A DNA stretch of 63,969 nt, from NCBI GenBank assembly GCA_026710545.1, contig JAPOQU010000004.1, positions 1-63,969 on the forward strand, given 5' to 3'. Source of the DNA: Gammaproteobacteria bacterium. Its GTDB lineage: Bacteria > Pseudomonadota > Gammaproteobacteria > Eutrophobiales > Eutrophobiaceae. The position numbers were made by a program, and so were the translations under genes. Below, one piece after another: positions 6,861-63,364 of this stretch (positions are counted from its first letter, which is position 1; every line of letters begins with the position of its first letter). The notes beneath the pieces were generated by a model. It did no database searches and was not told the DNA's origin. It saw only the letters and a program-made list of their open reading frames with translations.

Positions 6861-6940
6861 GGGGACAGATTTAAAATCTGTCCCCAGCAGGCTGATTTGG
6901 ACGCTACCGGGGTGTGCAGTGCCCTGATCATGAAGGTCCG
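6861..6940. repeat. Composite repeat: family A palindrome plus GGGGTGTGC...ATCATGAA segment
   Basis: GGGGACAGATTT/AAATCTGTCCCC (6861-6885) is followed about 20 bases later by CGGGGTGTGCAGTGCC and CTGATCATGAAGGTCC. The same pairing, palindrome then GTGTGC segment, is seen at 60669-60744, 61910-61986 and reversed at 57140-57214. Here it runs into the 3' end of the acyl-CoA ligase gene. Confidence 0.7.
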
Positions 6941-15697: not shown

Positions 15698-17848
15698 ATG
15701 ATATTTAAATCAAAGAATGATTCCCGGCCTTACCACTACGGCCCATTCCCTTTTGAAGACCTGGCAACCGATGCGGCGCGGATACAGGCGGAAGCAGACA
15801 GCCCGGCTGTCAATAGTTCTGTGTTACGGCCATCGCCGACAACCTATGGCGCGGCAAACAAACGCTACTACGATTTGTTTACCACGATGCGCACACCTTC
15901 TCCGCTACCGCTCAGGGCGCCGGTACCGGATGACCTGGAACGGCGCGTCATCGACCTTAAGGGGATGGCGTATTTTCTTGATTCCGCTCACGCCGGCACC
16001 TGTTCCGTACCGGAGAATGCCTGGTGTGAAGGGTCGGATCGGGCAGAACATGACTATGCGATTGTCATCGCCGTAGAACACGGCCGCATCCCGGAACCGG
16101 ATAATCCCGCTCATGACTGGCTCAAGGACAGCGCGCATGAAACCGCAGTGATGCGCGGCATGGAAATAGCCGCTTGTATTGCCATATATATCTGCCAACT
16201 GGGATACAAGGCGCACGCGCATGCGGCCGGGGCGACGGACGTGGACCTGCAACGGCTGGCGGTATTGGCGGGTATCGCGTCCCGGCATGGCGATAAGGCA
16301 GTCAGCCCCTACCTCGACGACAACGTGTCCTTTGCCGCCGTGACGACGGATTACGAGCTGGCGACAGACAAGCCGCTGGCGCCTGTCAGACGCGCAGACA
16401 AGGGGCTGCGCTACTGGTTGGGAATCAACGGCGCGGAATCAGGCGCGGAGCGGAAGCGCCGGCGCAACAGGCCGTCCCATGCGAGCCGCTATCCGATGGA
16501 GCAGGTAAAACGGGTTGATCGTCCGACCACGCTTATCCTGGACGATGAAGTGCCCCGGGTGCCCAAACGCGCCGCCTTTTTTGAGCGCGCCCTGCGCGGC
16601 GACCTGGGTGAAAAGACGCGCCAGGAGCGCTTGCGCTTCGCCTTCAAACATCCCCTTTCCTTCGGCATGCTGGAGCCGATTCGCGCCATGCAACCCCTGC
16701 AGGACGGCCCTGTCAACGGCGGCGGCAATACGGATTTCAGCGACCCGGTCGCGAATGCCAGGGCGATCAAATCCCTGTCGTATTTTCTCGGTTCGGATTT
16801 AACCGGCATCTGTAAGGTCCCGGATTACGCCTGGTTTTCACACCATGCCGACGGCAAGCCTATAGAGCCTTACCATAAGTATGCCGTAGTGATGTTGATC
16901 GACCAGGGCTTTGACACCATGGAGGGCGCCAGCGGCGATGACTGGATCTCCGGTTGCCAGTCCATGCGCGCCTACATGCGCGGCGCCGAGATTGCCGGGA
17001 TCATGGCCGAATTCCTGCGCGCCGAAGGCATCCCGGCCAGGCCGCAAACCAATATCGACAGCGACGTGTTGCAGATACCGCTGCTCCTGCTGGCGGGACT
17101 GGGCGAGTTGAGCCGCATCGGCGAACTGGTGTTGAATCCGTATGTCGGCCCGCGCTTCAAGTCCGTCGTGCTGACGACCGACCTGCCCCTGGAAGTGGAT
17201 CAACCCATCGACTTCGGTTTGCAATATTTTTGCTCCAATTGCCTTAAATGCGCCCGCGAATGCCCCTGTGACGCCATCCCGGTGACCAATAAAAAAGTCA
17301 TGTTCAACGGTTATGAGATATGGAAACCGGATGTCGAACGCTGTACCCGCTATCGCGTCATAAACCAGAAGGGGTCGGCCTGCGGCCGTTGCATGAAAAC
17401 CTGCCCGCTCAATAAGGTCGTCACCGCGGACGGACCGCTGACACATAAAATCGGCACCTGGCTGGGCGTGAACGCAATGTGGTTGAAACCGCTGATGGTG
17501 CCGATCGCGGTCTGGCTTGACGACAGGCTGGGCTACGGCATGCGCAACCTCAACAAAAAGTGGTGGCTGGACCTGGAAGTGGTGGATGGGAGAACCGTCA
17601 AACCCGAGGCCACCAACCAGCGGGATATCGATATCAACCATCCGATGAACCTGAAACGGGAGAAAATTGCTTATCACCATGCCAACATGATGCCGCCGCC
17701 GGATGCCGACGAACCGGTCCCGGTTGACCGCAAGGCGGCAAAGGAATCGGTCTCGGTGCTGGAAACACCCGCTGAAGCACTGGCGCGCAAGGCAAAAGGC
17801 GGGGCAACGCCGGCGCATTACATCCCGATTAAATACGTCTCCGGCTGA
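15698..17848 (+). CDS. rdhA: Cytosolic-type reductive dehalogenase (RdhA), no reductase domain
   Basis: 716 residues with no Tat signal, unlike respiratory RdhA. Two related halves are visible (MAYFLDSAHAGTCSV ~90 and LSYFLGSDLTGICKV ~365), as expected for a decayed cobalamin-binding half plus the catalytic half. Fe-S ligands are Cys512-x2-Cys-x2-Cys-x3-Cys (CSNCLKCARECP) and Cys562-x2-Cys-x3-Cys-Pro (CGRCMKTCP) with Cys549 nearby. This is the layout of catabolic, oxygen-tolerant enzymes such as NpRdhA and BhbA, which remove halogens from phenols using cobalamin. It lacks the C-terminal reductase found in the paralogue at 47929-51156, so it must take electrons from another protein. No anchor protein RdhB and no cobalamin riboswitch were seen. 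Confidence 0.85.
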   Translation: MIFKSKNDSRPYHYGPFPFEDLATDAARIQAEADSPAVNSSVLRPSPTTYGAANKRYYDLFTTMRTPSPLPLRAPVPDDLERRVIDLKGMAYFLDSAHAGTCSVPENAWCEGSDRAEHDYAIVIAVEHGRIPEPDNPAHDWLKDSAHETAVMRGMEIAACIAIYICQLGYKAHAHAAGATDVDLQRLAVLAGIASRHGDKAVSPYLDDNVSFAAVTTDYELATDKPLAPVRRADKGLRYWLGINGAESGAERKRRRNRPSHASRYPMEQVKRVDRPTTLILDDEVPRVPKRAAFFERALRGDLGEKTRQERLRFAFKHPLSFGMLEPIRAMQPLQDGPVNGGGNTDFSDPVANARAIKSLSYFLGSDLTGICKVPDYAWFSHHADGKPIEPYHKYAVVMLIDQGFDTMEGASGDDWISGCQSMRAYMRGAEIAGIMAEFLRAEGIPARPQTNIDSDVLQIPLLLLAGLGELSRIGELVLNPYVGPRFKSVVLTTDLPLEVDQPIDFGLQYFCSNCLKCARECPCDAIPVTNKKVMFNGYEIWKPDVERCTRYRVINQKGSACGRCMKTCPLNKVVTADGPLTHKIGTWLGVNAMWLKPLMVPIAVWLDDRLGYGMRNLNKKWWLDLEVVDGRTVKPEATNQRDIDINHPMNLKREKIAYHHANMMPPPDADEPVPVDRKAAKESVSVLETPAEALARKAKGGATPAHYIPIKYVSG

Positions 17849-19379: not shown

Positions 19380-19425
19380 CATGCTTAAGTCCGCCCTCGT
19401 TTAAGAAACAGTCGTGCAACCAGAC

Positions 19426-38096: not shown

Positions 38097-38138
38097 AGTC
38101 TTGCTCCAACTGCAGAGTTGTCAAGTTGATTGCCGGAA

Positions 38139-38513: not shown

Positions 38514-38536
38514 GGTTTTTTTCGTTTTAAACCGCG

Positions 38537-40916: not shown

Positions 40917-40981
40917 ATGCGCCTTCCGTTTAACTGATAGTTGTTCATATAATATGGAATGTAGCCAAGCGCGTGAAGTGG

Positions 40982-41008
40982 GTACATACCTTAATAAGGT
41001 AGTTTTTT
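40982..41008. promoter_or_regulatory. Putative LuxR-type operator 3 (TACCTTAATAAGGTA)
   Basis: The core at 40987-41001 has perfect TACCTT/AAGGTA arms. A - strand -10-like TATTAT (40949-40954) is ~43 bases past its centre. Position relative to the aminotransferase ATG (71 bases) nearly equals that at the TonB receptor (70). Confidence 0.65.
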
Positions 41009-41022
41009 CCGGGATTTCTCCC

Positions 41023-41068
41023 GAACCCTCATGACCGGGTTTCCGCACACCCCGACAGCATGTAACTC
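41023..41068. repeat. AACCCTCATGACC...CACCCCG...ATGTAACTC repeat (family C)
   Basis: A ~45-bp segment that recurs at 57140-57185 and, reversed, at 60697-60744, 61939-61986 and partly 6901-6940. Here it stands without the family A palindrome and abuts the end of the Ldh-type gene. Confidence 0.7.
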
Positions 41069-42143
41069 AGCTTGCTTCCGCCACTTCGACGCCCAGTTGT
41101 TTCGCTAACTCAAGGCTGTCAGCCCAGCACAGGGTGTCGATTTGTACTTCACCGGTTTCCAGCGCTTTGCGACGACGGGAGAAGCTGCCTTCACCCGGCA
41201 TACGAATGGCATCAACACCGGGCGCTTTCCTGGAGTTGCGAACGTAATCCATACGAGCCTTGACGGCATCCTGGAACACGGACAGTGAACCAAAGGCATT
41301 TGGGTCGATCGCAAACATGATATGCCCTTTGGTCGAATCCTGCCTGGTAACGTGATCCATACCCATGTCGGCGCCAACCAGCGCACCGGAGATGAAATCA
41401 ATGAACATCAGCATGCCGTAACCTTTGTGGCCGCCCGGATCAATCGCGCCGGTGTCCAGGGAGTGGCCGATACCGGTACAGACCTTGAACGGATCGGTGG
41501 TCGGATTACCCTCCGCGTCGTGAACCAGGCCCGGTTCCATTTCTGCCTTGTACTTCTGAGAGTAGCGAACGTAGGTGGGCAAGGTTGCACAGGGAGTAAA
41601 GTCGAGCAAAAAGGGATCGTCACCTGTTGGCACCGCCCAGGCTAAAGGGTTACTGCCAATGACCGGCTGAGCGCCGCCCAACGGGTGAACCACAGGCACA
41701 ACATCATCAGAAAATATCATTGACACCAGGCCTTCGCGGGCGATCATTTCCGCATAAAGGCCGGCTTGAAAAAGATCGTTACTGTTGTTAATGCCGATTA
41801 CCGAGGCGCCGGAATCTTTTGCCTTTTTAATGGCGACATCGCAGGCCATCAGAGCCGCGAGGGGGCCGGGACCATTGTTGCCGTTGATCAAGGCATAGCT
41901 GGCGCCTTCCCTGGTAATTTCAGGCTTTCCGCCAGGGTCGGCTTTACCTTCCATATACTTTTGCAGGTGGGTATAAACCAGGTGGTTGAATCCCTGAACA
42001 GACACTCCGCGCAGGTCGGATTCCAGGTGAATACCTGCAACAATTCTGGCGGTTTCTTCATCAAAACCGACGGCGGCAAGCAAGTCTTCCATCATTTTGG
42101 TGAGTGTGCCGATCTTCACCGGACGGCTGGTATGGTTAAGCAT
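41067..42143 (-). CDS. Ldh-family (malate/L-lactate dehydrogenase-type) NAD(P)-dependent oxidoreductase
   Basis: 358 residues. GFDEETARIVAGIHLESDLRG, SNDLFQAGLYAE, VVHPLGGAQPVIGSNPLAWAVP and GAIDPGGHKGYGMLMFID-type stretches are those of the non-Rossmann Ldh2 family, which includes ureidoglycolate, delta-1-piperideine-2-carboxylate and 2-hydroxyacid dehydrogenases. It could reduce a keto acid made by a transaminase or oxidise a hydroxyacid. It follows the Nramp-like gene; the operon at 40916 starts downstream with its own promoter. Confidence 0.88.
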   Translation of the reverse strand: MLNHTSRPVKIGTLTKMMEDLLAAVGFDEETARIVAGIHLESDLRGVSVQGFNHLVYTHLQKYMEGKADPGGKPEITREGASYALINGNNGPGPLAALMACDVAIKKAKDSGASVIGINNSNDLFQAGLYAEMIAREGLVSMIFSDDVVPVVHPLGGAQPVIGSNPLAWAVPTGDDPFLLDFTPCATLPTYVRYSQKYKAEMEPGLVHDAEGNPTTDPFKVCTGIGHSLDTGAIDPGGHKGYGMLMFIDFISGALVGADMGMDHVTRQDSTKGHIMFAIDPNAFGSLSVFQDAVKARMDYVRNSRKAPGVDAIRMPGEGSFSRRRKALETGEVQIDTLCWADSLELAKQLGVEVAEAS

Positions 42144-42169
42144 TGTCTCAATCCTCGCTGGTACTCTTT

Positions 42170-42259
42170 TCAGTTAATATTGGCATGTTCAGGGCTGACC
42201 GGCGGCGCCCGCACTTTCGCGGTTTGCTCTTCCATCAACAATTCATGTAGTCGGTTCAT
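42170..42259 (-). CDS. Possible 29-residue small protein
   Basis: ATG 42259 has AGGTGA at 9-nt spacing, 20 bases after the Nramp-like stop; the frame ends at TGA 42170. The peptide begins MNRLHELLMEEQTAKV and has an amphipathic, charged N-terminal half. It lies between two genes of a - strand run. No homology is recognised, and it could be chance. Confidence 0.3.
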   Translation of the reverse strand: MNRLHELLMEEQTAKVRAPPVSPEHANIN

Positions 42260-42279
42260 ATCTATCTCTCACCTGGAAG

Positions 42280-43587
42280 TTAGCGGCCCAGGCCCAGTAT
42301 GCCGAAACAGATATAGCTCAGAGCGAACAGCCCCATGGACAAAATACCCAGCCAACTCCATGATTCTATTATTTTACCGGGGCGATGTGCCGGCGGGACA
42401 TCCGCTGAAAACATGGCGCGATGATTCAAAAACGCTATCAATGGGCTCGTAACGAAGGCGATGCTGGTGGCAAAATCGATGAATGCTCTGAAGGAGCTTG
42501 CAAACAGCATGAGTAAAATCGCGGCGCCGATGCATTGGATGAAGATAAACAGCGCATAGTGCTTGTTTTCCTGGGCCACTAATTCCCCAAAGCGGAACTG
42601 CGGCGTCTGGCCTGCCTTTTCTGCCCCGGTATGTTTTCGATAGCTAATCAATGCGCCGATGACGCGGGGGCAGGCATCGATAACCGCTAACAAGGAAGAC
42701 ACCATTACAACGACTACGACCAAAGAGATAATCGGGTAGGCAAAGCCGCCAATCGAAGATGTAAACAGGGAGATCAGTTGCGCGGCAAAACCATTGGGCG
42801 AATCCACCACGGTAATGTCCGGTTGGTACATGAGTACGGTTCCCAAAATCAGGAAGCCGAAAGCCAGGAGAGTTGTTACTACATAGCCGAGGTTAAAATC
42901 AAAATGCGCATCCGTGGGGTTAAACCGCGCGCCCATATCCTTTGACTTGGCGCAGACCCACAGGGACTGAAATACCGATACAATCATAGCGGAAGGCATG
43001 ACGCCTGACAGCGCAATAATAAACAGCAAGGTAGCCCGGTCAAACTCCCCGGGCAGCGTTAACGACGCTTCCCCCCAGTTGATGTCAGGCAACACCAGGA
43101 TGGTGGCCACTATTATCAGGACCAGCAACAGTCCAACAAACCCCTTGGAGACCTGTTCGAAAAGACGGTATCTGCCCCCGATCAGCAACGCCGAGCAAAG
43201 CGCCAGGAGGATCATTACGACCAGTTTCGGGTCGAGGCTCAGCGACAGGGCGCTGCCGACCAGCCCGGCGCTGACCAGCGCAAGGGCAGCCGTGCCGACA
43301 AACATGCTGATGGTCAGGTCAAGGCCCAGCACCAGGAGCGCCCAACGTCCCTGGCGGAAATAGCTGTCAACCAGGCTTTGCCCTGTCGCCGCGGCATATT
43401 CAGAGCCGAAACGGAAAGCCGGATATTTGATGGCGCAGGCAAGCAGGATGAAGCCGGCCAGCGCCAGGCCGAAATCCGCGCCGGCCCGGGTCGCCTGCAC
43501 CAGGTGTGAGATGCCTATGGCGGTGGCGGCAAAAATTATGCCGGGGCCGAGCTTGGCGACCAGGGCATTGAGAGACGATTCGTTCAT
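42280..43587 (-). CDS. Nramp-fold transporter lacking the metal-binding DPGN motif
   Basis: 435 residues, about eleven hydrophobic segments. KLGPGIIFAATAIGISHLVQ aligns with Nramp helix 1, but the DPGN metal-site motif is replaced by AIGISH. Helix 6 reads SGVMPSAMIVSVFQS rather than MPHNxxLHS. It therefore belongs to a divergent branch of the family, and transport of manganese or iron is doubtful. In this context an organic amine or acid is an alternative. It lies 13 bases after the aldolase-family gene. Confidence 0.8.
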   Translation of the reverse strand: MNESSLNALVAKLGPGIIFAATAIGISHLVQATRAGADFGLALAGFILLACAIKYPAFRFGSEYAAATGQSLVDSYFRQGRWALLVLGLDLTISMFVGTAALALVSAGLVGSALSLSLDPKLVVMILLALCSALLIGGRYRLFEQVSKGFVGLLLVLIIVATILVLPDINWGEASLTLPGEFDRATLLFIIALSGVMPSAMIVSVFQSLWVCAKSKDMGARFNPTDAHFDFNLGYVVTTLLAFGFLILGTVLMYQPDITVVDSPNGFAAQLISLFTSSIGGFAYPIISLVVVVVMVSSLLAVIDACPRVIGALISYRKHTGAEKAGQTPQFRFGELVAQENKHYALFIFIQCIGAAILLMLFASSFRAFIDFATSIAFVTSPLIAFLNHRAMFSADVPPAHRPGKIIESWSWLGILSMGLFALSYICFGILGLGR

Positions 43588-43600
43588 AGTGCTTTAAACG

Positions 43601-44371
43601 CTACCCGAGCGACACCTGTTCATCGATAAAATCTCTTGCCCAGGCTTCAAACGAGGCTTTGACGACACCGGGCTTGAGCAGGAAGTCATGCGCCTCCCGG
43701 GCATGTTCCGGCGCAATTTTCCGTATTGTGCCCACGGATTGCGCGAGCAGCTGCATGCGCGCCGCGCGCTCCAGCAGCACAGCCAGGTAAACAGCTTCCT
43801 CAATCGAGGCGCCGGTTGTCAATATGCCGTGGTGCGCCAGTAGAATCGACCTTTTGGCGCCGATGGCTGCGGAAATAATCCGCCCTTCCTCATCGGAGAA
43901 CGGCACCCCGGGCCACTCCGCCAGGTACGCGCAATCCTCGTAGAACATGGCGCTGTCCATGTGGGCGACTTCCAGGGGTTGTCCGGTCATCGACAACGCC
44001 GCGGCGTACGGCGGGTGCGTATGAACCAGGCAGCGTATTTCCGGCCTGGCGCGATACAACCATATATGGAAATTGATGGCCGGGTTGACGGCGCGCGCGC
44101 TGTCAATGACGTTAAGCTCGTCGTCGATCAGGCAGATATCCTCGTCCCTGACCTGGTTGAAAGCGGGGCCCATGCGCGGCGTGAGAAAGCAGCCGGGTTT
44201 TTCATCCGCGCGCACAGTGATCTGCCCAGCGAGGTTTTCCCCGTGCCCGTTGGCGCCGAGAATCTTGCAGGCAAGCGCCAGTTTTTCCCGAACGGAACAG
44301 GATTGCTGCGTTCGCCCGGGCGTCTCCTCATTGAATTGTTCGTAGATTTCTGCTTTGTTTTCTCTGGCCAT
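43601..44371 (-). CDS. Class II aldolase/adducin-family protein
   Basis: 256 residues. GHGENLAGQITVR, VHTHPPYAAALS and LLAHHGILTTG carry the zinc His residues of class II aldolases such as fuculose-phosphate aldolase and of decarboxylases such as those for 3-oxo acids. It would perform a retro-aldol or decarboxylation on a pathway product. It is the first gene of the - strand run that continues with the Nramp-like transporter and Ldh-type dehydrogenase. The 307-base gap upstream to the Fic gene shows no gene and no repeat that I recognise. Confidence 0.86.
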   Translation of the reverse strand: MARENKAEIYEQFNEETPGRTQQSCSVREKLALACKILGANGHGENLAGQITVRADEKPGCFLTPRMGPAFNQVRDEDICLIDDELNVIDSARAVNPAINFHIWLYRARPEIRCLVHTHPPYAAALSMTGQPLEVAHMDSAMFYEDCAYLAEWPGVPFSDEEGRIISAAIGAKRSILLAHHGILTTGASIEEAVYLAVLLERAARMQLLAQSVGTIRKIAPEHAREAHDFLLKPGVVKASFEAWARDFIDEQVSLG

Positions 44372-46793: not shown

Positions 46794-47774
46794 ATGAAAC
46801 TTGCTTCCATGAAAAACGGCCGTGACGGCGCGCTGGTTGTCGTCAGCCGCGATGTTAAAACAGCCGTTGACGCCAGCGCCGTCGCGCCGACCATGCAGGC
46901 GGCGCTGGATGACTGGGAAACGCTTGAACCGGCGTTGCAGGCGCTGTTCGCGGCGCTCAACAACGGCACGGCAGAGAATGCCTTTGCCCTGGATTTCAAT
47001 GCCCTGGCCGCGCCGTTGCCGCGCGCTTACCAGTACCTCGACGGCGCCTGTTACATCAGCCATATCAGCCGCAACCGCGCGGCCCGGGGCGACAGCCTGC
47101 CTGAAGACATTCTTGACGCGCCGCTGATCTACCAGGGAATCTCCCATGGATTTATGGCGTGGAACGACCCCGTGCGCCTGCCCCGGGAGGACCTGGGCAT
47201 CGATTTTGAAGCGGAGATTGCCGCGCTTACCGGCAGGGTCCCGATGGGGGTTGGCGCCGGTGAGGCAACCAGGCATATTAAACTGTTCACGTTGTTGAAC
47301 GATATTTCCCTGCGCGCGCTGATACCGGCGGAGCTGAAGCGCACCTTCGGCTTTCTTACCGGCAAGCCCGCCTCGGCCCTGGGCCCGCTGGCGGTCACAC
47401 CCGATGAACTGGGCGGGTTGTGGGACGGAAAACTGGTATCGGGGAAAATGCATTGCTGGGTGCGCGGGGAAAAATTCGCAGAGATTGAAGCGGGCATCGA
47501 CACGCCGTTCCATTACGGCGACATGATCGCCCACGTGGCGCAGACCCGGGAATTCGAACCGGGGACCATTATCGGCCTGGGCACTGTTTCCAACGAGGAT
47601 GAAAGCGTCGGCTGCGGCTGTATCGGCGAACAACGGGCGCTGGAAATCATCGCCGGCGGAAAGGCGTCAACCGAGCTGCTGAAGTTCGGCGACAGCGTGA
47701 AACTGGACCACCGGGATTACCGGGGCAATTCCGTTTTTGGATGTATCGAGCAGACTGTGGCTCCATACGCGTGA
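46794..47774 (+). CDS. Fumarylacetoacetate hydrolase-family protein
   Basis: 326 residues. The FAH metal signature is visible as LGIDFEAEIAALTG (ExE), with MAWNDPVRLPRED before it and FHYGDMIAHVAQTREFEPGTIIGLGTV after it. Length suits the two-domain bacterial FAH-like hydrolases that cleave acylpyruvates or 2,4-diketo acids formed from aromatic rings. It lies next to the IclR gene and convergent with the self-sufficient dehalogenase, so it may serve the lower part of a phenol pathway. Confidence 0.87.
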   Translation: MKLASMKNGRDGALVVVSRDVKTAVDASAVAPTMQAALDDWETLEPALQALFAALNNGTAENAFALDFNALAAPLPRAYQYLDGACYISHISRNRAARGDSLPEDILDAPLIYQGISHGFMAWNDPVRLPREDLGIDFEAEIAALTGRVPMGVGAGEATRHIKLFTLLNDISLRALIPAELKRTFGFLTGKPASALGPLAVTPDELGGLWDGKLVSGKMHCWVRGEKFAEIEAGIDTPFHYGDMIAHVAQTREFEPGTIIGLGTVSNEDESVGCGCIGEQRALEIIAGGKASTELLKFGDSVKLDHRDYRGNSVFGCIEQTVAPYA

Positions 47775-47795: not shown

Positions 47796-47871
47796 GGGGA
47801 CAGATTTAAAATCTGTCCCCAGCGTCCCCATAATCTTCGGTAAATTCGGGGACAGATTTAAATCTGTCCCC
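47796..47871. repeat. Two family A palindromes in tandem
   Basis: GGGGACAGATTT/AAATCTGTCCCC copies at 47796-47820 (25 bp) and 47848-47871 (24 bp, perfect) sit between the convergent FAH and dehalogenase genes, both preceded by GTAAATTC. Confidence 0.9.
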
Positions 47872-47928: not shown

Positions 47929-50900
47929 TCAAAACGAAATGGTAATTTCCCCGCCGGGTTCCTGCGCCCGGGATTGGCAGGTGATGATGGTGTGTTCCCG
48001 TTGCGCCTTTGAGAGGACATAATCCCGGTGTTCCACCTCGCCGGCAACAAGCCGGCAGCCGCATACTCCGCATAAACCGTCGCTGCATTTCATATCGATA
48101 TGGATGCCGGCCTTGAGCAGCGCTTCGGCGGCGCTGCTGTGCGCGCCGACTTCGATCACCTGGCCGGTGTTTTCGACCTTTACGGTAAACGGGTGGTTTT
48201 CATATTGCGGCGCCTCGGGGATGGAAAAATACTCCTTATGCAGGGCTTCCTCGGGCCAGTTCCACCTTTCTCCGGCTGCCAGCGTCGCCTTCATGTAGCG
48301 GTCCGACCCACAGGTGTAGAGGTGGTAGCCGTCCTCGTAACGGGACAGCAGGGCATCAAGATCAGCGCGTGAACCTTCTTGCGAAAAATGCAGGTGGACC
48401 TTGTCGAACCAGGGGAAGTCCGCCAGGTCGCGCAGGAAGCCGGCTACCTCCCGGTTGCGGCAGGAATAATGCAATTCGAACTCACGCCCCAGGGTATGCA
48501 GGCGGTGGCCCATGGCAATCATGGGGGTGATGCCGATACCGCCGCCCAGCAGGAATGAACGCCTGGCGTCTTCGCGCAAGGGGAAGTGATTCACCGGGCG
48601 GGAGATAAAAATACGCCGCCCCTCTATGAAAATATCGTGCAGCAGTTTCGACCCCCCTCGCCCTTCTTCCTCTTTCAGCACGCCGACCTGGTATTTGCTG
48701 CGGTCCGCCGGGTCGCCGGACAGGCTGTACTGGCGAAAATATTCCGGCGCGACCACGACGTCGATATGGGCGCCCGCGTCAAAGGCCGGCAGGTCGTCTC
48801 CGGTCTGGGAGGAAAATTCATATTTTGTCACGTGGTCCGTCATTTTTTCAACCTTGCTGATGACCACCCGAAGCACGGGTGAAGGACCCGCGGGCGGGAC
48901 AGCTTTATGAGCGATATTTTCCGCGTCACCCTGCCTGAGTCTTTGTTTGTATTGTTGCGGCGTCAACAGCTCCCGGTAGGCCTTGATGCCTTTTTCCCGA
49001 TCCATCGGCGCCGGGTAGGGGTAGGGATGCGGCGCCAGGTTGGCCGGATAGACTGCCAGGGTCTGGTCTTCGTATTTCAAGTCCAGCCCGGTTTGCAGTT
49101 CGCGCCGGTTTGCCGGCTTGCCGGCGGGCCGGTACGGCCCTTCGTCCGTCATTTCAATATCCCACCACCATTTTTTGACCGGGTTGACGCTGCCGTTGCC
49201 CAGTTTGTCGTCCAGCGCCGCGAGGCGCTTCGCCGCCGCCGGCACGTTGGACGCGAGCCAGCGGAACGGCGCTTCCGCGAACAGTCCCTCCAGGTTCCAG
49301 GGGCAGGTTTTCATGCAGCGCCCGCACATGGCGCCGCCGGGTTGCGATAGCCGGTAAGTGGCGCATTTCTGGCTGTCGGATTTCCAGGTCTCATAACCGT
49401 TGAACATGAGTTTCGGGCCGGCGGTGATGGCGCCCGACGGACACTCGCGCGCGCACTTGTTGCAGTTGTTGCAGAAGTTCTGCAAGCCGAAATCCACGGG
49501 TTTGTCGTGAGTCAGCGGCATATTGGTGGTGATGACCCCGGTTTTCAGCCTGGGGCCGAGATAGGGGTTGAGTATGACCTCACCGATGCGGCTGACTTCC
49601 CCCAGCCCCGACAACAGCAGCAAGGGGGGTTGCAGCACCTCGCCGTCCATGACGGTATGGACCCTGGCCGAGTAGCCCAGGTTGCGGATCTGTTCGCCGA
49701 TGACCCCGCCCAGGACGGAGAAACGCAGGTAGGCGCGCATGGATTGCGCGCATGCGATCCAGTCATCCCCGGAAGCTCCTTCCATGGTTTCATGCCCCTG
49801 GTCGATAATCACGTTGACGGCATTCTCATGGTACGGCGTGATGGGTTCGCCGATGGCGTCGTGGGAGTAGTACACCCAGTCCGGGCAGCGGGATATCCCC
49901 ACCGCGTCGGCGCCAAGAAAATACAACGCGGCCTTGACATTGTCCGCGTTGCGTTGCGAGTCCTGCGCGCATGGGGATATTTTTTCCGCGGCCGGGCCGT
50001 CCTGCAGCAGGACAAAGGCGCCAAGGGGACGCCTGTGGGCAAAACTGGCAGGACTTTTGCGCACGAAATTACCGTTTTTGGCGGCCTCCTGCACCGGTTT
50101 GCCCATGTCGCCGAATATGGCCCGGGCAAACATGTCCGTGCGTTTCGGCACCCGCGGGATACGCGCTTCATCGATAAACGTGGTGGGCTCATCCACCCGT
50201 TTGCTGCGCTCAAACGGATAAGCGCCGTCCTTGAATTTCCGGCGGCTGTATGGCGTATTGTTGAACCTGCTTTTGGCAAAACCCTTGCCAAGCCACCAGC
50301 CCGGCCCATGGCTGCGCACCCGGTCTGCCAGCTTGCGGCTTGCCAGTGGCCGGTCCGGCGCCAGTTCCAGGGTGGTGGTGACGGCCGCCAGGCCGAAGCG
50401 CGCGCCGGTGTAGGGATTCCGCAGCGCGGGACCATCCGCAGTTTCAACGATTTCGGCGAGCCCGGCCGCTATGGCCAGTTTATTCAGGTCAACGTCGCTG
50501 GCGGAACCCGTGTGCGCCCGCGCGTCAAAGCCCAGTTGCCGGATATAGTTGGAGATGATAACCGCGGTCTCGGCCGCGCGCAGGCTCGCGCGTTGCGGCT
50601 GGCAGTCCTGTATCCAGTCGCAGCCCGGCTCGTCCCGCGCCGGGTCCCGGGGGTATTCATGAAGACAGACCAGCGCATGGGTATGGTGATCAACCTGGGA
50701 CGGCGGCGCGTCCATGGACTTTTTCAGTTCCGCCATGATCATATCAATGCCGGCGGCCAGCGTTTTTGTCTGTTTGGTCCGGAGTTCCTGGGCCAATTGC
50801 TCAATATCGGGATTGACAACGGGTTCGGAGAGGAAAAAAGAACTGTCCAGCCGGCACACGCCTGCCTGCCCGGCATCCTGGTAATACCCGAACGATTTGA

Positions 50901-51156
50901 GATGATTCGAGCGTTCCTCCAGGTCGCCGGGAATGCTGGCGCGTTCCTTTTTCACCAGGCCGTCGCGGATGGCGTCCAGCATGGCTTCATAACGGCGCAT
51001 GGCATTGGCAAGGCTCTCCGGCGCCTCGTCGTGAAACGACACGGGCTGCATGGCCGGCGCCCGGGACAGGTCCGGCATTTCATCTCTGCGGCGCAGTGTT
51101 TCCAGCGGGTACGGCCCCAGGTGAAAGGGCCGATCTTTGTAGGAAAATAATCTCAC
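47929..51156 (-). CDS. rdhA: Self-sufficient reductive dehalogenase (RdhA fused to PDR-type reductase)
   Basis: About 1075 residues from GTG 51156, chosen by alignment with the paralogue (VRLFSYKDRPFHLGPYP versus SKNDSRPYHYGPFP); the frame remains open to 51276 but that would overlap the divergent gene. Residues ~1-740 are RdhA with Fe-S motifs CNNCNKCARECP (~560) and CGRCMKTCP (~608). From ~758 an FMN domain (RQYSLSGDP), an NAD domain (LLGGGIGITPMIAM) and a C-terminal plant-type [2Fe-2S] domain (CSDGLCGVCGCRL, ~1020) form a phthalate-dioxygenase-reductase module. BhbA-like enzymes of this build use NAD(P)H directly for cobalamin-dependent dehalogenation. No Tat signal. Confidence 0.9.
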   Translation of the reverse strand: MRLFSYKDRPFHLGPYPLETLRRRDEMPDLSRAPAMQPVSFHDEAPESLANAMRRYEAMLDAIRDGLVKKERASIPGDLEERSNHLKSFGYYQDAGQAGVCRLDSSFFLSEPVVNPDIEQLAQELRTKQTKTLAAGIDMIMAELKKSMDAPPSQVDHHTHALVCLHEYPRDPARDEPGCDWIQDCQPQRASLRAAETAVIISNYIRQLGFDARAHTGSASDVDLNKLAIAAGLAEIVETADGPALRNPYTGARFGLAAVTTTLELAPDRPLASRKLADRVRSHGPGWWLGKGFAKSRFNNTPYSRRKFKDGAYPFERSKRVDEPTTFIDEARIPRVPKRTDMFARAIFGDMGKPVQEAAKNGNFVRKSPASFAHRRPLGAFVLLQDGPAAEKISPCAQDSQRNADNVKAALYFLGADAVGISRCPDWVYYSHDAIGEPITPYHENAVNVIIDQGHETMEGASGDDWIACAQSMRAYLRFSVLGGVIGEQIRNLGYSARVHTVMDGEVLQPPLLLLSGLGEVSRIGEVILNPYLGPRLKTGVITTNMPLTHDKPVDFGLQNFCNNCNKCARECPSGAITAGPKLMFNGYETWKSDSQKCATYRLSQPGGAMCGRCMKTCPWNLEGLFAEAPFRWLASNVPAAAKRLAALDDKLGNGSVNPVKKWWWDIEMTDEGPYRPAGKPANRRELQTGLDLKYEDQTLAVYPANLAPHPYPYPAPMDREKGIKAYRELLTPQQYKQRLRQGDAENIAHKAVPPAGPSPVLRVVISKVEKMTDHVTKYEFSSQTGDDLPAFDAGAHIDVVVAPEYFRQYSLSGDPADRSKYQVGVLKEEEGRGGSKLLHDIFIEGRRIFISRPVNHFPLREDARRSFLLGGGIGITPMIAMGHRLHTLGREFELHYSCRNREVAGFLRDLADFPWFDKVHLHFSQEGSRADLDALLSRYEDGYHLYTCGSDRYMKATLAAGERWNWPEEALHKEYFSIPEAPQYENHPFTVKVENTGQVIEVGAHSSAAEALLKAGIHIDMKCSDGLCGVCGCRLVAGEVEHRDYVLSKAQREHTIITCQSRAQEPGGEITISF

Positions 51157-51215
51157 GGCAGTTTCGTCATGTAATCGGCAAAAATGAGTATGACCCGATT
51201 TGACATCATTTACAT

Positions 51216-51231
51216 TTACACTATAGTATAA
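51216..51231. promoter_or_regulatory. Near-perfect palindrome in the divergent promoter region
   Basis: TTACACTATAGTATAA has one mismatch between 8-bp arms. It lies in an AT-rich island between the dehalogenase (-) and molybdenum enzyme (+) starts and contains TATAGT and TATACT, possible -10 boxes for the two directions. One regulator could control both genes here. Confidence 0.5.
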
Positions 51232-51266
51232 CGTTTCAATATAATAGGAACAACCGACAAGCTCCG

Positions 51267-54242
51267 ATGCGCGCATTCAGGGATTCTCTTTACCGGCTGG
51301 CCTTCGCCGTCATCCTGCTTGGCATTTATATGCTGGTCAGGCTCACGGCGCTGTTGCAGCCGGCCTACCGCAACCGGCTCAAACAGCAGAACCTGATTGT
51401 GCAAATCAAAGCGCTCGACAAGCCCATGGGCAGGCACTACCGGTTCGCTGACGGCAAAGTAACAACGGGAGCCGGAATTCACCCGGGGGCGCGCGCAAGC
51501 ATGGTGTTCAAGTCCGCCGAAACCGCCGTCCGGCTGCTTGTTTTTTCCCATGACCACCAGGCCTTCATCAACGCCGCCAAGATGTTCAGGGTGGACCTGG
51601 AAGGGTCGCAGGAGGCAGGCGCCTGGTTTACCGAAACCCTGAGCATGCTGAAGACCACGTGGTGGAAATTCGGCACGAAAATGGACGATGGAACCGTGCG
51701 CTATACCAACAATACCAACGGCGGCCCGGTGTTTGTCTATGTGAAAGACAACCGGATCGTCAGGATGACACCCATTGATTTTGACGGCAAGGACGCGCCG
51801 TCCTGGTCCCTGACGGCCCGGGGCAGGACCTTCACCCCGCCGCGCAAGACCTCCCTCAGCCCCCATGGACTGGCGTCCAAGTCGCTGGTCTATTCCCCGG
51901 ACCGCCTGCTGTATCCCATGAAACGGGTGGACTTCGACCCGCACGGCGCACGCAACTGCGACCAACGCGGCATCTCGGGCCACGAACGCATCAGCTGGGA
52001 TGAGGCCCTGGATATTGTCGCCGGGGAAATTGAACGGGTAAAACGGGAGCACGGCCACGGCGCCATCCTGAGCAGCCACAGCTCGCACCACACCTGGGGC
52101 AACATCGGCTATTACCTGAGCGCCAACTTCCGCTTTATGAACGCCATCGGCCATACCAAGATGGTGATCAACCCGGACAGCTGGGAAGGCTGGTACTGGG
52201 GCGCCATGCACCATTACGGCAACAGCATGCGCAACGCCGCGGCCGAACCCTACGGCGGCGTGGAGGATTGCCTCAGGGAATGCGAGCTGATCGTCTATTG
52301 GTCCAGCGACCCGGAAAAAACCAACGGCAACTACGGCGGTTTTGAAGGCACCATCCGGCGCCGCTGGGCGCAGGAACTGGGCATCAAGACGATCCACATC
52401 GACCCCTACCTGAACGACACGGCGGGGTTCTGGGGAGGCAAGTGGATCCCGGTGCGCCCCGGCACGAGTCCGGCCCTGGCCCATGCCATCACTTACGTCT
52501 GGATGACGGAAGGTTTATACGACAAGGACTACGTGCGCGACCGCACCACCGGGTTTGACAAGTGGCAGGATTACATCCTGGGCAGGGAAGACAACGTGCC
52601 CAAGACACCCGAATGGCAGGAACCGGAAACCGGCGTGCCGGCCCACGCGGCGCGCGCGCTGGCGCGCGAGTGGGGCAGCAAAAAGACTTACCTCTCGGCC
52701 GGCGGCAAAGGCAACACCTTCGGCGGCGCCTGCCGCTCCGCGACGGGCTCCCAATGGGCGCGTTCCATGGTCTGTCTCATGGCCATGCAGGGCCTGGGAA
52801 AACCCGGGGTCAACTTCGGCAACCTGCAATTCGGCGCGCCGGTCGATTATAACTTTTATTTTCCCGGTTACGCCGACGGCGGCATCTCCGGCGATATCGA
52901 GGGCACCGCCAGCGCGGTCAACCTCTACCAGCGCATGCCGCACCTGGTCAGCATGAACAGCGTCGGGCAGAAACTCTCGCGCATGCGTATCCCGGAAGCC
53001 ATCCTGGACGGCGAAACCGAGTTTTACCCCACCGACCCGCGCGCGCTGGAAAGACAGTTTGCCAAATCCCGTTTCCCCGCGCCCGGCGGCTCGGGGGTGA
53101 AGATGATGTACAAGTACGGCGGCTCCCATTTCGGCACCACCATGAACGCAAACCGGTTGGCGCGGGCCTACCAGTCCGATTCCCTTGAGTTCGTCGTAAA
53201 CCAGTCCATCTGGAATGAAGGCGAGGTCCGGTTCGCCGACATAATTTTCCCGGCCTGCACCAATTTTGAACGCTGGGACATCGGTGAAGCGGCCAACTGC
53301 GGCGGCTATTCGCTGCACAACGAAGGGCAGCTGAACCATCGCGTTGTCACCATGCAGCACAAGTGCATCGAACCCCTGGGCGAATCGAAATCGGATTGGC
53401 AGATTTACCATGACCTGTCAAAACGGCTTGGGCTCGGGGCCTATTATTCGGAGGGGCTGACCGAACTCGACTGGTGCAAGAAAATATTTCAGGCCTGTGA
53501 CGCCGGCAAACACATCTCCTGGCGCGAATTCCTGCGCAAGGGTTACTTTGTCGTGCCCGCCGAGCGGGAGGAGCTCAGGGCGCCCACTGCGTTCCGCTGG
53601 TTTGCGGAAGGCCGGCAGAAAGACGTGCCGGAGCCGTTTCCGCTGCCGTCGGAATACGGCGGTAAATTTCGCGAAGGGTTGCAGACCCGGTCCGGCAAGA
53701 TAGAGTTTGAGCCATCCAGCCTGAAGCGCTTTGACGACCCATTACGGCCGCCCATCAACCGCTACATCCCTTCCTGGGAAGGGCCGGCCAACAAGGAACT
53801 GTCCGGGAAATATCCCTTGCAACTGCTTACTCCGCACCCGCGCTACAGCTTTCACACCAAGGGCGACGGCAAGGACAGCAGCATCAACGACATCGGGCAA
53901 CACCGCCTGCTCATCGATGGGTATTATTACTGGATCGCGCGTATCAACCCGGCGCAAGCCGCGGCGCGCGGGATCAACAGCCGCGACCTGGTGCGTCTCT
54001 ACAATGACCGGGCCTCGGTCATCTGCGCCGCCCTGGTGACCGAACGCATCATGCCGGGCGTGGTGCATGCCTGCGAATCCAGCGCCGTCTATGACCCGGT
54101 CGGTGAACCGGGCAAGTCCCCCGACCGCGGCGGCTGCGTCAACCTGCTGACGCCGCACCGCAGCCAGACCGATAAAACCACCGCGTCCGCGCCCAATTCC
54201 TGTCTTATAGAGCTGGAGAAATGCAACAGTCAGGGTACATAA
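51267..54242 (+). CDS. Molybdopterin enzyme, pyrogallol:phloroglucinol transhydroxylase-like large subunit with N-terminal extension
   Basis: 991 residues. From ~140 (VRYTNNTNGGPVFVYVKDN) to the end it follows transhydroxylase AthL, including SSHSSHHTWGN (His), NPDSWEGWYWG (Asp-Ser-Trp; Ser is the Mo ligand), FYFPGYADGG (Tyr) and the C-terminal DRGGCVNLLTP. As in AthL there is no N-terminal Fe-S cysteine motif. AthL moves hydroxyls between trihydroxybenzenes; resorcinol hydroxylase is a related option. The first ~135 residues are extra: a hydrophobic segment (~8-32) and an SCP2-like domain (GAGIHPGARASMVFKSAETA, FRVDLEGSQEAGAWF). No Tat signal is seen, so it is probably anchored on the cytoplasmic face. 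Confidence 0.85.
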   Translation: MRAFRDSLYRLAFAVILLGIYMLVRLTALLQPAYRNRLKQQNLIVQIKALDKPMGRHYRFADGKVTTGAGIHPGARASMVFKSAETAVRLLVFSHDHQAFINAAKMFRVDLEGSQEAGAWFTETLSMLKTTWWKFGTKMDDGTVRYTNNTNGGPVFVYVKDNRIVRMTPIDFDGKDAPSWSLTARGRTFTPPRKTSLSPHGLASKSLVYSPDRLLYPMKRVDFDPHGARNCDQRGISGHERISWDEALDIVAGEIERVKREHGHGAILSSHSSHHTWGNIGYYLSANFRFMNAIGHTKMVINPDSWEGWYWGAMHHYGNSMRNAAAEPYGGVEDCLRECELIVYWSSDPEKTNGNYGGFEGTIRRRWAQELGIKTIHIDPYLNDTAGFWGGKWIPVRPGTSPALAHAITYVWMTEGLYDKDYVRDRTTGFDKWQDYILGREDNVPKTPEWQEPETGVPAHAARALAREWGSKKTYLSAGGKGNTFGGACRSATGSQWARSMVCLMAMQGLGKPGVNFGNLQFGAPVDYNFYFPGYADGGISGDIEGTASAVNLYQRMPHLVSMNSVGQKLSRMRIPEAILDGETEFYPTDPRALERQFAKSRFPAPGGSGVKMMYKYGGSHFGTTMNANRLARAYQSDSLEFVVNQSIWNEGEVRFADIIFPACTNFERWDIGEAANCGGYSLHNEGQLNHRVVTMQHKCIEPLGESKSDWQIYHDLSKRLGLGAYYSEGLTELDWCKKIFQACDAGKHISWREFLRKGYFVVPAEREELRAPTAFRWFAEGRQKDVPEPFPLPSEYGGKFREGLQTRSGKIEFEPSSLKRFDDPLRPPINRYIPSWEGPANKELSGKYPLQLLTPHPRYSFHTKGDGKDSSINDIGQHRLLIDGYYYWIARINPAQAAARGINSRDLVRLYNDRASVICAALVTERIMPGVVHACESSAVYDPVGEPGKSPDRGGCVNLLTPHRSQTDKTTASAPNSCLIELEKCNSQGT

Positions 54243-54330
54243 CCGCCGGGGACAAACCGCAGGGACCCCCAAACCGCCGGGGATACTCCACCCCGCCGGG
54301 GACAGATTTAAATCTGTCCCCAATGACCCC
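54241..54330. repeat. AACCGCCGGGGA direct repeats plus family A palindrome between subunit genes
   Basis: AACCGCCGGGGA occurs at 54241 and 54272 with a third variant at 54291; a perfect palindrome (GGGGACAGATTT/AAATCTGTCCCC) follows at 54298-54321. It separates two subunits expected to be made together, which is unusual. Confidence 0.8.
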
Positions 54331-54366
54331 TGACTCCAGGGCGCATAACCGCCAGGGGTTCATACC

Positions 54367-55248
54367 ATGAACAAGTGGAACATGATCGTCGATGTGAAGA
54401 AATGCGTCGGCTGCTACAACTGCTTCCTGTCGTGCAAGGATGAGCACGTCGGCAACGAATACCCCGGTTATGCCAAAGCGCAACCCGCGCACGGCCATAA
54501 CTGGATTGACATAGAGCTGGTCGAGCGCGGCCAGGTTCCCATGGTGGACATGACCTACGTGCCAAAGATGTGCAACCACTGCGACGATGCGCCGTGCATC
54601 AAGGCCGGCAAGGGCGCCGTGTATAAACGCGCAGACGGCATTGTGATGATCGACCCCGACAAGGCGAAAGGGCGCAAGGATATTGTGGACTCCTGCCCCT
54701 ACGGCGCCATCCACTGGAACGAAGAGGAGCAGGTACCCCAGGCCTGGTACTTCGACGCGCACCTGCTGGACCAGGGTTGGCGGGAACCCCGTTGTGTCCA
54801 GGCCTGCCCCACCGGCGCGCTGAAAGCGTTCAAGGTATCTGACAATGAAATGCAACAACTGGTAAAAACAGAAAATCTCAGTGATATAGAACCTGAATAT
54901 CAAACACGTCCGCGGGTTCATTACAAGAACCTGGAACAGGTCAGGCGCCGCTTTGTTGCCGGAACTGTCATTACTGAAGGTAACGATATTCAGGAAGCAG
55001 TTGAAGATGCTGAAATTTACTTGCTGCGTGGCGCTGAAAATGTGGGGGAAACTAAAACTGATAATTACGGGGATTTCAAGCTCGATGGCGTCTCAGGCAG
55101 CGGAACCTGCCGGCTGGTAATCGATAAAGAAGGTTATAACAGCCAGTCATACGATATTGAATTAAGTGAGAGCATTAATGTTGGCGCGGTAATGCTGCTG
55201 CCTGTAGAACCTCGGACACATCAACATGCTGAATCAGTTGCGAGCTGA
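54367..55248 (+). CDS. Transhydroxylase-like small subunit (polyferredoxin plus beta-barrel domain) with altered cluster site
   Basis: 293 residues, ATG preceded by CAGGGG at 8 nt. It follows transhydroxylase subunit BthL: CVGCYNCFLSC (Cys13-23), CNHCDDAPC, CPYGAIHWNEEEQVPQ, and a C-terminal transthyretin-like domain (VAGTVITEGNDIQEA, TKTDNYGDFKLDG). The expected C-x2-C after VPQ is replaced by Trp127-Tyr-Phe-Asp130, while the later CVQAC remains, leaving 10 of 12 ligands. One cluster is therefore probably missing or unusual. It pairs with the large subunit upstream. Confidence 0.87.
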   Translation: MNKWNMIVDVKKCVGCYNCFLSCKDEHVGNEYPGYAKAQPAHGHNWIDIELVERGQVPMVDMTYVPKMCNHCDDAPCIKAGKGAVYKRADGIVMIDPDKAKGRKDIVDSCPYGAIHWNEEEQVPQAWYFDAHLLDQGWREPRCVQACPTGALKAFKVSDNEMQQLVKTENLSDIEPEYQTRPRVHYKNLEQVRRRFVAGTVITEGNDIQEAVEDAEIYLLRGAENVGETKTDNYGDFKLDGVSGSGTCRLVIDKEGYNSQSYDIELSESINVGAVMLLPVEPRTHQHAESVAS

Positions 55249-62011: not shown

Positions 62012-63364
62012 CTAACCACGTTTAACCGGTTTGGCGTCAACGGTTACGCGGATTGCCTTTTGTACGTGACGTTCAACCGTAGGCTTGGCGGAACCGCCGT
62101 CCCGCTCACCCCAGGTGACGACCAGTTCTTTCCCGTCTGCGGCCAGGTCCTCCCGCACGCAGGCCAGGGAAATCCAGGCGCGCAGGTTGTCGGAATAGGC
62201 GGGAACGAAAGACATGCCCACACGTTCGCCATCCAGCAACACCTCGTCACAGGAGAAGGTAGAGTAATTGGCTACCGGCATTTCCATATATTTGTAACGT
62301 TCAGCGCCAGGTCTGAACTGGCTGGCGTAGACCTCATTGGTATCTTCAGCATTCCAGACCAGGCGCACCTTTTTGCGCTTGGGCTGTTCTGCCATCTTTT
62401 CCAGCGCCTCACGACCGATAAACTCGTGGTCAAACTTGATCATGAAACCGTACCCCAGCTCATAAGGGGTCAGGTACAGATCTTCGATGTCGTGCTCTTC
62501 GCTATAGTAACTGCCACCGATGGAACCGGACCCTTCAGGGCTCTTCGCAGGCAGCCACTCACGATATTCTTTCGTCTTTTCCCCTGTGTAAACCGCGGGA
62601 ACCGCGCCGCCAAACCAACCGGACTCAGCCGACGTGCACGGATAGATGCGACCGCCGACAGGTGTCAGGTCATACTTCTCACCGGCTTCGAACACCAGTG
62701 CGCGCACGGCCTCACCTTCTTCACTTGAGCCCCAGAACTCATAACCCGGCGCGCCGGACATGCGGTGGTTCAAGGCCGTGGCCTGGTAGCTGCCTATCCT
62801 GAATTTACCCATTTTGAAAAACGGGATATCGGGTAACGGGCCGCCGTTTACGGCTTCCAGGATTTTGTTGGCATTGGGACCTTGAACCTGGTAGCGATAC
62901 AACTGTCTGTCGGCCAGGTTTGGCGACGGCTTGTCGATACAAAGGGTCTCCACGTCGTAGCCGCCGGTTGCCGCGTGGTAGGCAATCCACATTATCGAGC
63001 TCGGCCGGCCCAGGATATGGACCTTGTTCTCCGTTTCGCAAGTCAGGATTGCATCGCCGATCATGAAACCGTCATAGCTACAGACGACCAACTGTTTGGC
63101 CTTCATTGCGCCGAAGTTGCCGAAACTGTTTATTGCCAGGCCTTGGAGCAGTTTGGAGACACCGGGGCCTTGCAATTGCAAGTCTGTCATGTGGTGGGAC
63201 ATGTCCTGGAAAATTGCGGCGTTTTTCCAGGCCGCCTGTTCGTCACGAAAGTTGCTGAATTCGGGTTTTACCGGGAACTGAAAAGGGCTTGCAGGCGCAT
63301 TGTAAAGCATCTCGAAGGGACTGGCATAGCCCTGCAGTTTTTGTTCCAGGGTTTGATCGGTCAT
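62012..63364 (-). CDS. Tetrahydrofolate-dependent aromatic O-demethylase (LigM/DesA-type, GcvT fold)
   Basis: 450 residues of the aminomethyltransferase fold. PEFSNFRDEQAAWKNAAIF, DMSHHMTDLQLQGPGV, GRPSSIMWIAYHAATGGYDV, ALNHRMSGAPGYEFWG, REWLPAKSPEGSGSIGGSYY and YELGYGFMIKFDHEFIGREAL track the vanillate/3-O-methylgallate demethylase LigM and syringate DesA closely. It transfers an aryl O-methyl group to THF, giving a phenol and methyl-THF. Its ATG overlaps a short EthD-like ORF stop (ATGA) and has AGAGGAA 8 nt upstream. The MetF-MetV fusion at 19426 could handle the methyl-THF. A glycine-betaine-type demethylase is a less likely alternative. Confidence 0.86.
   Translation of the reverse strand: MTDQTLEQKLQGYASPFEMLYNAPASPFQFPVKPEFSNFRDEQAAWKNAAIFQDMSHHMTDLQLQGPGVSKLLQGLAINSFGNFGAMKAKQLVVCSYDGFMIGDAILTCETENKVHILGRPSSIMWIAYHAATGGYDVETLCIDKPSPNLADRQLYRYQVQGPNANKILEAVNGGPLPDIPFFKMGKFRIGSYQATALNHRMSGAPGYEFWGSSEEGEAVRALVFEAGEKYDLTPVGGRIYPCTSAESGWFGGAVPAVYTGEKTKEYREWLPAKSPEGSGSIGGSYYSEEHDIEDLYLTPYELGYGFMIKFDHEFIGREALEKMAEQPKRKKVRLVWNAEDTNEVYASQFRPGAERYKYMEMPVANYSTFSCDEVLLDGERVGMSFVPAYSDNLRAWISLACVREDLAADGKELVVTWGERDGGSAKPTVERHVQKAIRVTVDAKPVKRG

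Follow-up and report, generated by a model that had tools for sequence, protein, structure and literature searches.

A fused reductive dehalogenase arranged divergently from a resorcinol-hydroxylase-like molybdenum enzyme in a gammaproteobacterial genome

The window analyzed here is a stretch of 63,969 nucleotides and corresponds to contig C4 of a 4.4-Mb gammaproteobacterial genome in 129 contigs. Between positions 47,929 and 55,248 it carries a gene for a reductive dehalogenase (RdhA) fused to a reductase module and, on the opposite strand, the genes for the large and small subunits of a molybdenum enzyme resembling resorcinol hydroxylase (RhL and RhS, together RhLS). All three genes were found at the coordinates given by an earlier note on this DNA. 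The gene identities are firm, and the conserved catalytic residues, the divergent arrangement and the RhL-type N-terminal domain are shown by the present analysis. The composing features are the following:

47929..51156, minus strand: fused RdhA, 1075 amino acids (aa) from the GTG at 51156 (TIGR02486 and NpRdhA matches, residues, tree)
47932..48900, minus strand: phthalate-dioxygenase-reductase module of RdhA (flavin/NAD/[2Fe-2S]), residues ~753-1075 (2pia, 6kbh and 6laa matches)
51157..51266: divergent spacer, 110 bp, with a sigma-70-like site inside
51267..54242, plus strand: RhL-like molybdopterin large subunit, 991 aa (PF21423, PF00384, PF01568; 4v4c_A)
51267..51692, plus strand: N-terminal extension of the large subunit, residues 1-142 (predicted long helix and SCP2-like domain)
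54367..55248, plus strand: small iron-sulfur subunit (RhS/BthL-like), 293 aa (4v4c_B, PF13247)

The earlier note had RdhA start from the ATG at 51276, which would overlap the start of the molybdenum enzyme gene by 10 bp. We favour the GTG at 51156, as it aligns with the start of NpRdhA (4ras) and yields the 1075 aa of the database prediction P0121, close homologues being ~1075 aa long as well. The database matches include RdhAs of 91-92% identity (P0122, P0123) and an RhL of 95% identity (P0001, 1.13 Mb). The short divergent arrangement described in that note is thereby retained, with a spacer of 110 bp. Toward the molybdenum enzyme gene, this spacer contains the sigma-70-like site TTGACA-16-TATAGT (51200-51227; 11/12), which is a consensus match only and not proof of a promoter; no such site was found for the RdhA strand. 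An Rfam scan of the window returned nothing at gathering scores.

Fused dehalogenase and molybdenum enzyme

RdhA matches the NCBIfam reductive dehalogenase (RDH) model TIGR02486 with 205 bits (cut-off 160). This model was used for the RDH searches because the Pfam Dehalogenase family (PF13486) gave zero matches in the whole genome and in all 14 control genomes. In the long frame of RdhA, residues 793-1105 match phthalate dioxygenase reductase and P450 reductase tails, with 2pia matched over residues 801-1106 and Fer2 matched too. The motifs RQYSLS (at 808), GGGIGITP (at 871) and CSDGLCGVC (at 1024) presumably mark the flavin, NAD and [2Fe-2S] parts of this reductase module. The similarity to Nitratireductor NpRdhA (6zxu, 4ras) reaches E ~1e-161 (phmmer), and two 4Fe-4S motifs start at residues 562 and 598. 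The catalytic residues Y426, K488 and R552 of NpRdhA correspond to Y476, K538 and R602, while its S422 and M423 are kept as S472 and M473; according to excerpts of PMC10463259, all five are conserved between NpRdhA and JtRdhA, a characterised fusion. NpRdhA lacks an equivalent of around 50 residues (146-196, numbered from the ATG), which agrees with the insertion relative to NpRdhA that the same excerpts describe for JtRdhA as specific to fusions.

In a tree of 31 RdhA rows, 16 fused rows including Comamonas BhbA fall on one side of a branch with a support of 100/100; JtRdhA itself is not among these rows. The nearest unfused (sister) group includes the RdhA type found on contig C114 of the same genome. 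RdhA is 51% identical to BhbA, and it shares its domain order, catalytic Tyr-Lys-Arg, two 4Fe-4S motifs and reductase tail with BhbA (Comamonas sp. 7D-2) and JtRdhA (Jhaorihella thermophila). The gene neighbourhoods differ: on plasmid pBHB, BhbA is accompanied by ligA, extradiol dioxygenase genes and a transporter gene, whereas RdhA in the window is accompanied by RhLS and a fumarylacetoacetate (FAA) hydrolase. The product of 47929-51156 is thus firmly predicted to be a BhbA-type self-sufficient catabolic reductive dehalogenase with its reductase tail and catalytic residues intact, as the earlier note had proposed for an RdhA fused to an FMN/NAD/[2Fe-2S] reductase. JtRdhA uses NADPH to dehalogenate brominated and iodinated phenols, and ortho-halogenated phenols are the substrates of the catabolic RdhAs characterised so far (both from excerpts of PMC10463259). 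RdhA is likely to strip halogens from phenols as well.

Over residues 143-987, the large subunit of the molybdenum enzyme matches that of Pelobacter pyrogallol hydroxytransferase, AthL (4v4c_A), with 984 bits, and the small subunit matches 4v4c_B with 237 bits. As sequence matches, both scores are far beyond chance. The small subunit ends in a CarboxypepD_reg-like stretch that scores just under the PF13620 cut-off (29.7 versus 32.3 bits). His144, Asp174, Ser175 and Tyr404 of AthL, which we take to be its active-site residues, are nearly invariant in the alignment of 90 rows: S175 has no exception, whereas H144, D174 and Y404 have one each (L091 for H144 and Y404, L053 for D174). The window enzyme keeps all four, and the AthL family membership put forward in the earlier note is upheld. 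A catechol dehydroxylase identity was considered and rejected, as that family clusters away from the pyrogallol enzyme in the part of PMC7028382 that was available and the window protein scores 984 bits to AthL.

The large subunit is 59.6% identical (991 columns) to the homologue of Aromatoleum anaerobium LuFRes1 encoded on plasmid pLuFRes1 (L074), which strain and plasmid suggest to be the characterised rhL gene itself, and 53.6% identical (841 columns) to AthL. In the tree, it joins the A. anaerobium homologue in a 36-row clade (Shimodaira-Hasegawa-like approximate likelihood-ratio test, SH-aLRT, 97), with Pelobacter outside (SH-aLRT 94 and 97), although this is a quick tree in which Pelobacter AthL and the outgroup L091 sit on long branches that meet. 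Alignment and tree comprise 76 of 80 RhL loci (L020, L059, L079 and L085 left out). Because the molybdenum enzyme groups with the LuFRes1 homologue and not with Pelobacter AthL, net oxidative hydroxylation is likelier than transhydroxylation. RhL hydroxylates resorcinol to hydroxyhydroquinone, as stated in an excerpt of PMC10100899, and by homology RhLS of the window is predicted to add a ring hydroxyl without oxygen. On the present sequence comparison, the enzyme should better be called resorcinol-hydroxylase-like than transhydroxylase. Of the earlier note's AthL/BthL-like molybdenum enzyme, the family and the active site therefore stand and its phylogeny falls within the resorcinol hydroxylase branch, but the transhydroxylase assignment is given up.

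With RhLS of Aromatoleum/Azoarcus anaerobius LuFRes1, the window enzyme has its two subunits, N-terminal extension, active site and clade in common. It differs by being only 60% identical, by its other partner genes and by a host that is probably aerobic or facultative, judging from gene content. Pelobacter acidigallici AthL/BthL (4v4c) shares the fold family and H144/D174/S175/Y404, but AthL lacks residues 1-142 and is placed outside the RhL-type rows. The gap of 124 bp between RhL and RhS is unusual: among 39 co-directional RhL-RhS pairs the median is -4 and only one gap reaches at least 100 bp, all gaps being lower bounds because longest-frame starts were used.

N-terminal domain of the large subunit

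The earlier note had overlooked that AthL has no equivalent of residues 1-142 of the large subunit. Counted from longest-frame starts, at least 113 residues precede the AthL start in all RhL-type rows (88/88), compared to 8 in L091 and none in 4v4c_A; in the window RhL there are 142. The AlphaFold model of RhL residues 1-147, built from a 46-row alignment, has a mean predicted local distance difference test (pLDDT) score of 90.9 and comprises a long helix and an SCP2-like fold. Its best match in the Protein Data Bank (PDB) is UbiJ-SCP2 (E 2.6e-5; template modelling (TM) score 0.54/0.65; 14% identity). For the SCP2 domain of UbiJ, binding of ubiquinone intermediates by their isoprenoid tail has been proposed (PMC9499169, in excerpt). 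RhL is described as an electron donor enzyme in anaerobic respiration, whereas the transhydroxylase acts in fermentation (PMC10100899, in excerpt). Based on this difference and on the modelled fold, we infer that the RhL domain may provide a quinone or membrane contact. Apart from the gene pair, the SCP2-like domain offers a possible explanation of how a resorcinol hydroxylase might gain access to the quinone pool. Among the papers listed by a literature search, none names SCP2 or UbiJ together with pyrogallol hydroxytransferase or resorcinol hydroxylase.

A hydrophobic stretch is present at RhL residues 12-30, with a 19-residue hydrophobicity of 2.3 in the window. Against a role at the membrane, only 16 of 74 RhL N-termini reach a 19-residue hydrophobicity of 1.6, and a table among the available parts of PMC10100899 lists both RhL and the transhydroxylase as cytoplasmic. 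A membrane anchor is therefore not general in RhL.

Possible joint route and conservation of the pair

One possibility is that RdhA and RhLS serve a single route, in which a phenol would be dehalogenated and then hydroxylated with water-derived oxygen. Its substrates and the order of its steps are supposed, and we hold it tentatively, at somewhat less than an even chance. In such a route, RdhA would act first and, driven by NAD(P)H, take off a halogen adjacent to the phenolic hydroxyl, electrons flowing from NAD(P)H via flavin and [2Fe-2S] into the 4Fe-4S clusters and cobalamin. RhLS would then add a ring hydroxyl from water to a meta-dihydroxylated or similar phenol, resulting in a hydroxyquinol-type ring. 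The electrons of RhLS would exit via the small subunit and perhaps enter the quinone pool, the SCP2-like domain providing a membrane or quinone contact. Intradiol dioxygenases encoded on other contigs (C114 and C11, the latter with a second PF04444 dioxygenase) could carry out ring cleavage, and one of the products may be a substrate of the neighbouring FAA hydrolase. Phlorotannin or bromophenol as substrates are a guess. If the pair works in series, natural halogenated phenols could be both dehalogenated and hydroxylated without an oxygenase. Both enzyme families are already known; in the partly accessible texts, no report was found that joins the reductive dehalogenase and transhydroxylase/resorcinol hydroxylase families.

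Other RdhA loci of the genome provide an analogy. The genome search with TIGR02486 identified five long RdhA frames (728-1115 aa; two reaching the cut-off), a short 324-aa relative on C44 and a weak match of 48.9 bits on C13. On C114 (L175), the genes downstream of RdhA on the same strand encode an HpaB-2-like hydroxylase (670 bits), a DUF1329 protein, an intradiol dioxygenase (210 bits) and a CaiB-family isomerase-like protein; in the congener G004 (L188), an HpaB-2-like gene and a dioxygenase lie within ~6 kb of RdhA. In these clusters RdhA lies near a ring hydroxylase gene, as in the window pair, but the C114 cluster differs in its unfused RdhA and in a hydroxylase of the flavin monooxygenase family HpaB-2. 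HpaB-2 family hydroxylases use O2. On C47 (L176), RdhA precedes, on the same strand, two PaaA/PaaC-family genes, a PaaD-like gene, a PaaE-like reductase, PaaX and a ligase gene (Pfam matches being the basis of the paa names), an arrangement hinting at halogenated phenylacetate use. The neighbours of the C19 RdhA include two glutathione transferases and a short-chain dehydrogenase. As RdhA is found beside ring hydroxylation or oxidation genes in two of the four other cases, RhLS could by analogy be the hydroxylase partner of the fused RdhA. With five long catabolic RdhAs in the genome and other ring-oxidation genes next to two of them, RdhA may serve as a plug-in front end.

At the level of genomes, the two enzymes do co-occur. 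A draw of 150 genomes from one order was centred on a Rhodospirillales metagenome-assembled genome (MAG), itself an RhL carrier, and searched with the unfused RdhA of the window. RhL (>=1000 bits) occurs in 19 and RdhA (E <= 1e-40) in 17 of these genomes, with both in 13. RdhA is thus present in 13 of the 19 RhL genomes versus 4 of the 131 others (Fisher one-sided p = 3e-11), the sameness of the 150 genomes in both searches being judged from genome labels. Five more genomes with weaker molybdenum enzyme matches (<=390 bits) were not counted as RhL. Several genomes of this order (G522, G421, G600 and others) hold at least three RhL-type paralogues. Among 369 genomes of the window's class, catalytic-range RdhA was scored in 7 and RhL in 2, with both only in the window's genome (p = 0.04, this genome counted); these counts are lower bounds, as at most two candidates per genome were scored, and reductase-only matches were dropped by query range. 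Searches of six congeners (some of them incomplete, 77-97%) yielded no RhL and no fused RdhA, while other RdhAs are common there. This absence is consistent with joint arrival of both genes.

The direct neighbourhood of RhL was assessed in the best 80 of 275 relatives from a contig scan with the large subunit, with flanks of up to 10 kb (27 loci of at least 22 kb have nearly full flanks; 20 are under 10 kb). A usable RhL frame is present in 77 of the 80 loci and the small subunit in 59; the next commonest gene cluster occurs in 20, in scattered places. The only RDH-like neighbour is a 326-aa gene in a Rhodospirillaceae MAG (L018, 13905-14885), located ~48 bp after RhS on the same strand. Its product scores 101 bits against TIGR02486, below the cut-off. 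The RDH profile that detected it was built including it, but a prior tblastn had found it independently; it may possibly be a small RDH partner of RhLS. Separately, a distant DMSO-reductase-family frame (dimethyl sulfoxide; 23% to RhL) adjoins RdhA in L125/L173 (G171). Of 50 RhL genomes hand-chosen from the 80 and therefore not random, 34 have some match to the fused RdhA query at E <= 1e-10 (reductase-only matches included) and 26 at E <= 1e-80.

Four further features bear on the history of the locus or lie elsewhere in the window:

46794..47774, plus strand: FAA-hydrolase-family gene (PF18288, PF01557)
47848..47871: 24-bp perfect palindrome between the FAA hydrolase gene and RdhA, identical to the next
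54298..54321: 24-bp perfect palindrome, resembling repetitive extragenic palindromic (REP) elements, between the RhL and RhS genes
15698..17848, plus strand: second catabolic RdhA, unfused, 716 aa (TIGR02486)

REP-like palindromes around GGGGACAGATTTAAATCTGTCCCC are located at 6861, 47796, 47848, 54298, 57191, 60669 and 61910. Five palindrome copies (<=3 mismatches) occur in the window versus none in shuffles, and similar palindromes are present on contigs C114, C47 and C19. The FAA-family product is possibly a hydrolase of ring-cleavage products, weakly linked to the pair. Its link with RhL was suggested by three plasmid regions (of eight matches), holds in 5 of the 80 loci and involves the window subfamily only in L010, where a 43%-identical FAA hydrolase gene lies ~4 kb past RhL; it was kept as weak. 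The GC content (guanine plus cytosine) of the FAA hydrolase, RdhA and RhL genes is 0.61-0.62, compared to 0.50 for the two genes after RhS. This shared composition is weak evidence, since other genes of the window reach at least 0.61 too.

A number of observations weigh against a joint route. The fused RdhA stands beside RhL in none of the 80 fetched loci, and a match spanning both RdhA and reductase is found in none of the 50 RhL genomes. Conversely, no RhL was found in three other gammaproteobacterial genomes carrying the RdhA fusion, nor is it annotated beside the fused RdhA in four plasmid regions (of eight matches), for which the gene table is incomplete. In the 13 co-carriers of the order draw, RdhA and RhL either do not share a contig or are separated by at least ~100 kb, so that the association is one between repertoires and not between gene pairs; its p-value ignores kinship and habitat, and shared habitat or descent could produce it. 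Of the co-occurrence envisaged by the earlier note, the genome-level part with unfused RdhA is thus found, the adjacency of a fused RdhA is not, and the exact RdhA-RhLS pair looks unusual. Apart from the 43%-identical one, FAA hydrolases beside RhL elsewhere match the one of the window at 22-26% or not at all, and a homogentisate dioxygenase is encoded on C69, whose pathway could use the FAA hydrolase instead. The GC content of RhS is 0.53 and a palindrome separates it from RhL, while gene GC across the window spans 0.44-0.69 with several genes elsewhere at or above 0.61. On C114, neither the HpaB-2 nor the dioxygenase score reaches its equivalog cut-off, and the dioxygenase has its highest score as a catechol enzyme. 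The undistinctive GC, the homogentisate dioxygenase and the few hydrophobic RhL N-termini weigh slightly against the joint route and against its bolder version given below, and slightly in favour of chance neighbourhood.

Many of these observations would be expected if RdhA and RhLS were chance neighbours, i.e., independently acquired catabolic modules in a mosaic degradation contig, acting on unrelated phenolic substrates. The missing conserved adjacency in the loci, RhL genomes and class draws, the absence of both genes from the six congeners, the REP-like palindromes here and on three other contigs, the deviating GC of RhS and the patchy GC of the window all fit such an origin, while the short divergent spacer, the genome-level co-occurrence and the RdhA genes beside ring-oxidation genes at two other loci speak against it. 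We consider it a serious possibility, marginally behind that of a shared route. A further variant keeps the partnership and reverses its order: RhLS would hydroxylate the halogenated phenol first and make the ortho-hydroxyl that RdhA needs. As the characterised catabolic RdhAs act on ortho-halogenated phenols (PMC10463259, in excerpt), prior hydroxylation could be a prerequisite, yet the genomic order gives no direction and acceptance of halogenated rings by RhLS is only supposed. We consider this order improbable. Still less credit goes to a true pyrogallol:phloroglucinol-type transhydroxylase as in Pelobacter: the 54% identity to AthL and the four retained active-site residues would suit it, but the grouping with the A. 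anaerobium homologue to the exclusion of AthL, long-branched as the latter is, and the N-terminal domain missing from AthL point the other way. The joint route with dehalogenation first can also be extended to a bolder version, which we regard as rather unlikely. An NADPH-driven B12 enzyme would here take the halogen from halogenated phenols, and a membrane-anchored, quinone-linked molybdenum enzyme would then hydroxylate them with water, both steps preparing the ring for opening without O2 in an otherwise O2-respiring bacterium, and the SCP2-like domain would have turned a transhydroxylase fold into a respiratory hydroxylase.

Other catabolic genes of the window

The second RdhA of the window (15698-17848), also missed by the earlier note, scores 173.5 bits as a whole protein against TIGR02486 (cut-off 160) and is 59% identical to the C47 RdhA; no Pfam family matched it at E <= 1e-5. 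Upstream of it lies a CrtO-like FAD enzyme, and downstream there are a MetF-like gene and a sulfatase. The contig encodes a MetF-like protein with DUF5981 at 19414-20937 and a DesA/LigM-like tetrahydrofolate-dependent aryl O-demethylase at 62012-63364 (483 bits, below the cut-off). Together, they suggest the use of methoxylated aromatics. Two Rieske oxygenases and three TonB receptors are present elsewhere on the contig. Finally, an agmatinase (above the cut-off), class III aminotransferases, an M20 peptidase, Ldh2 and a class II aldolase stand in a row at 35528-44371, forming an apparent amine or guanidine catabolic cluster.

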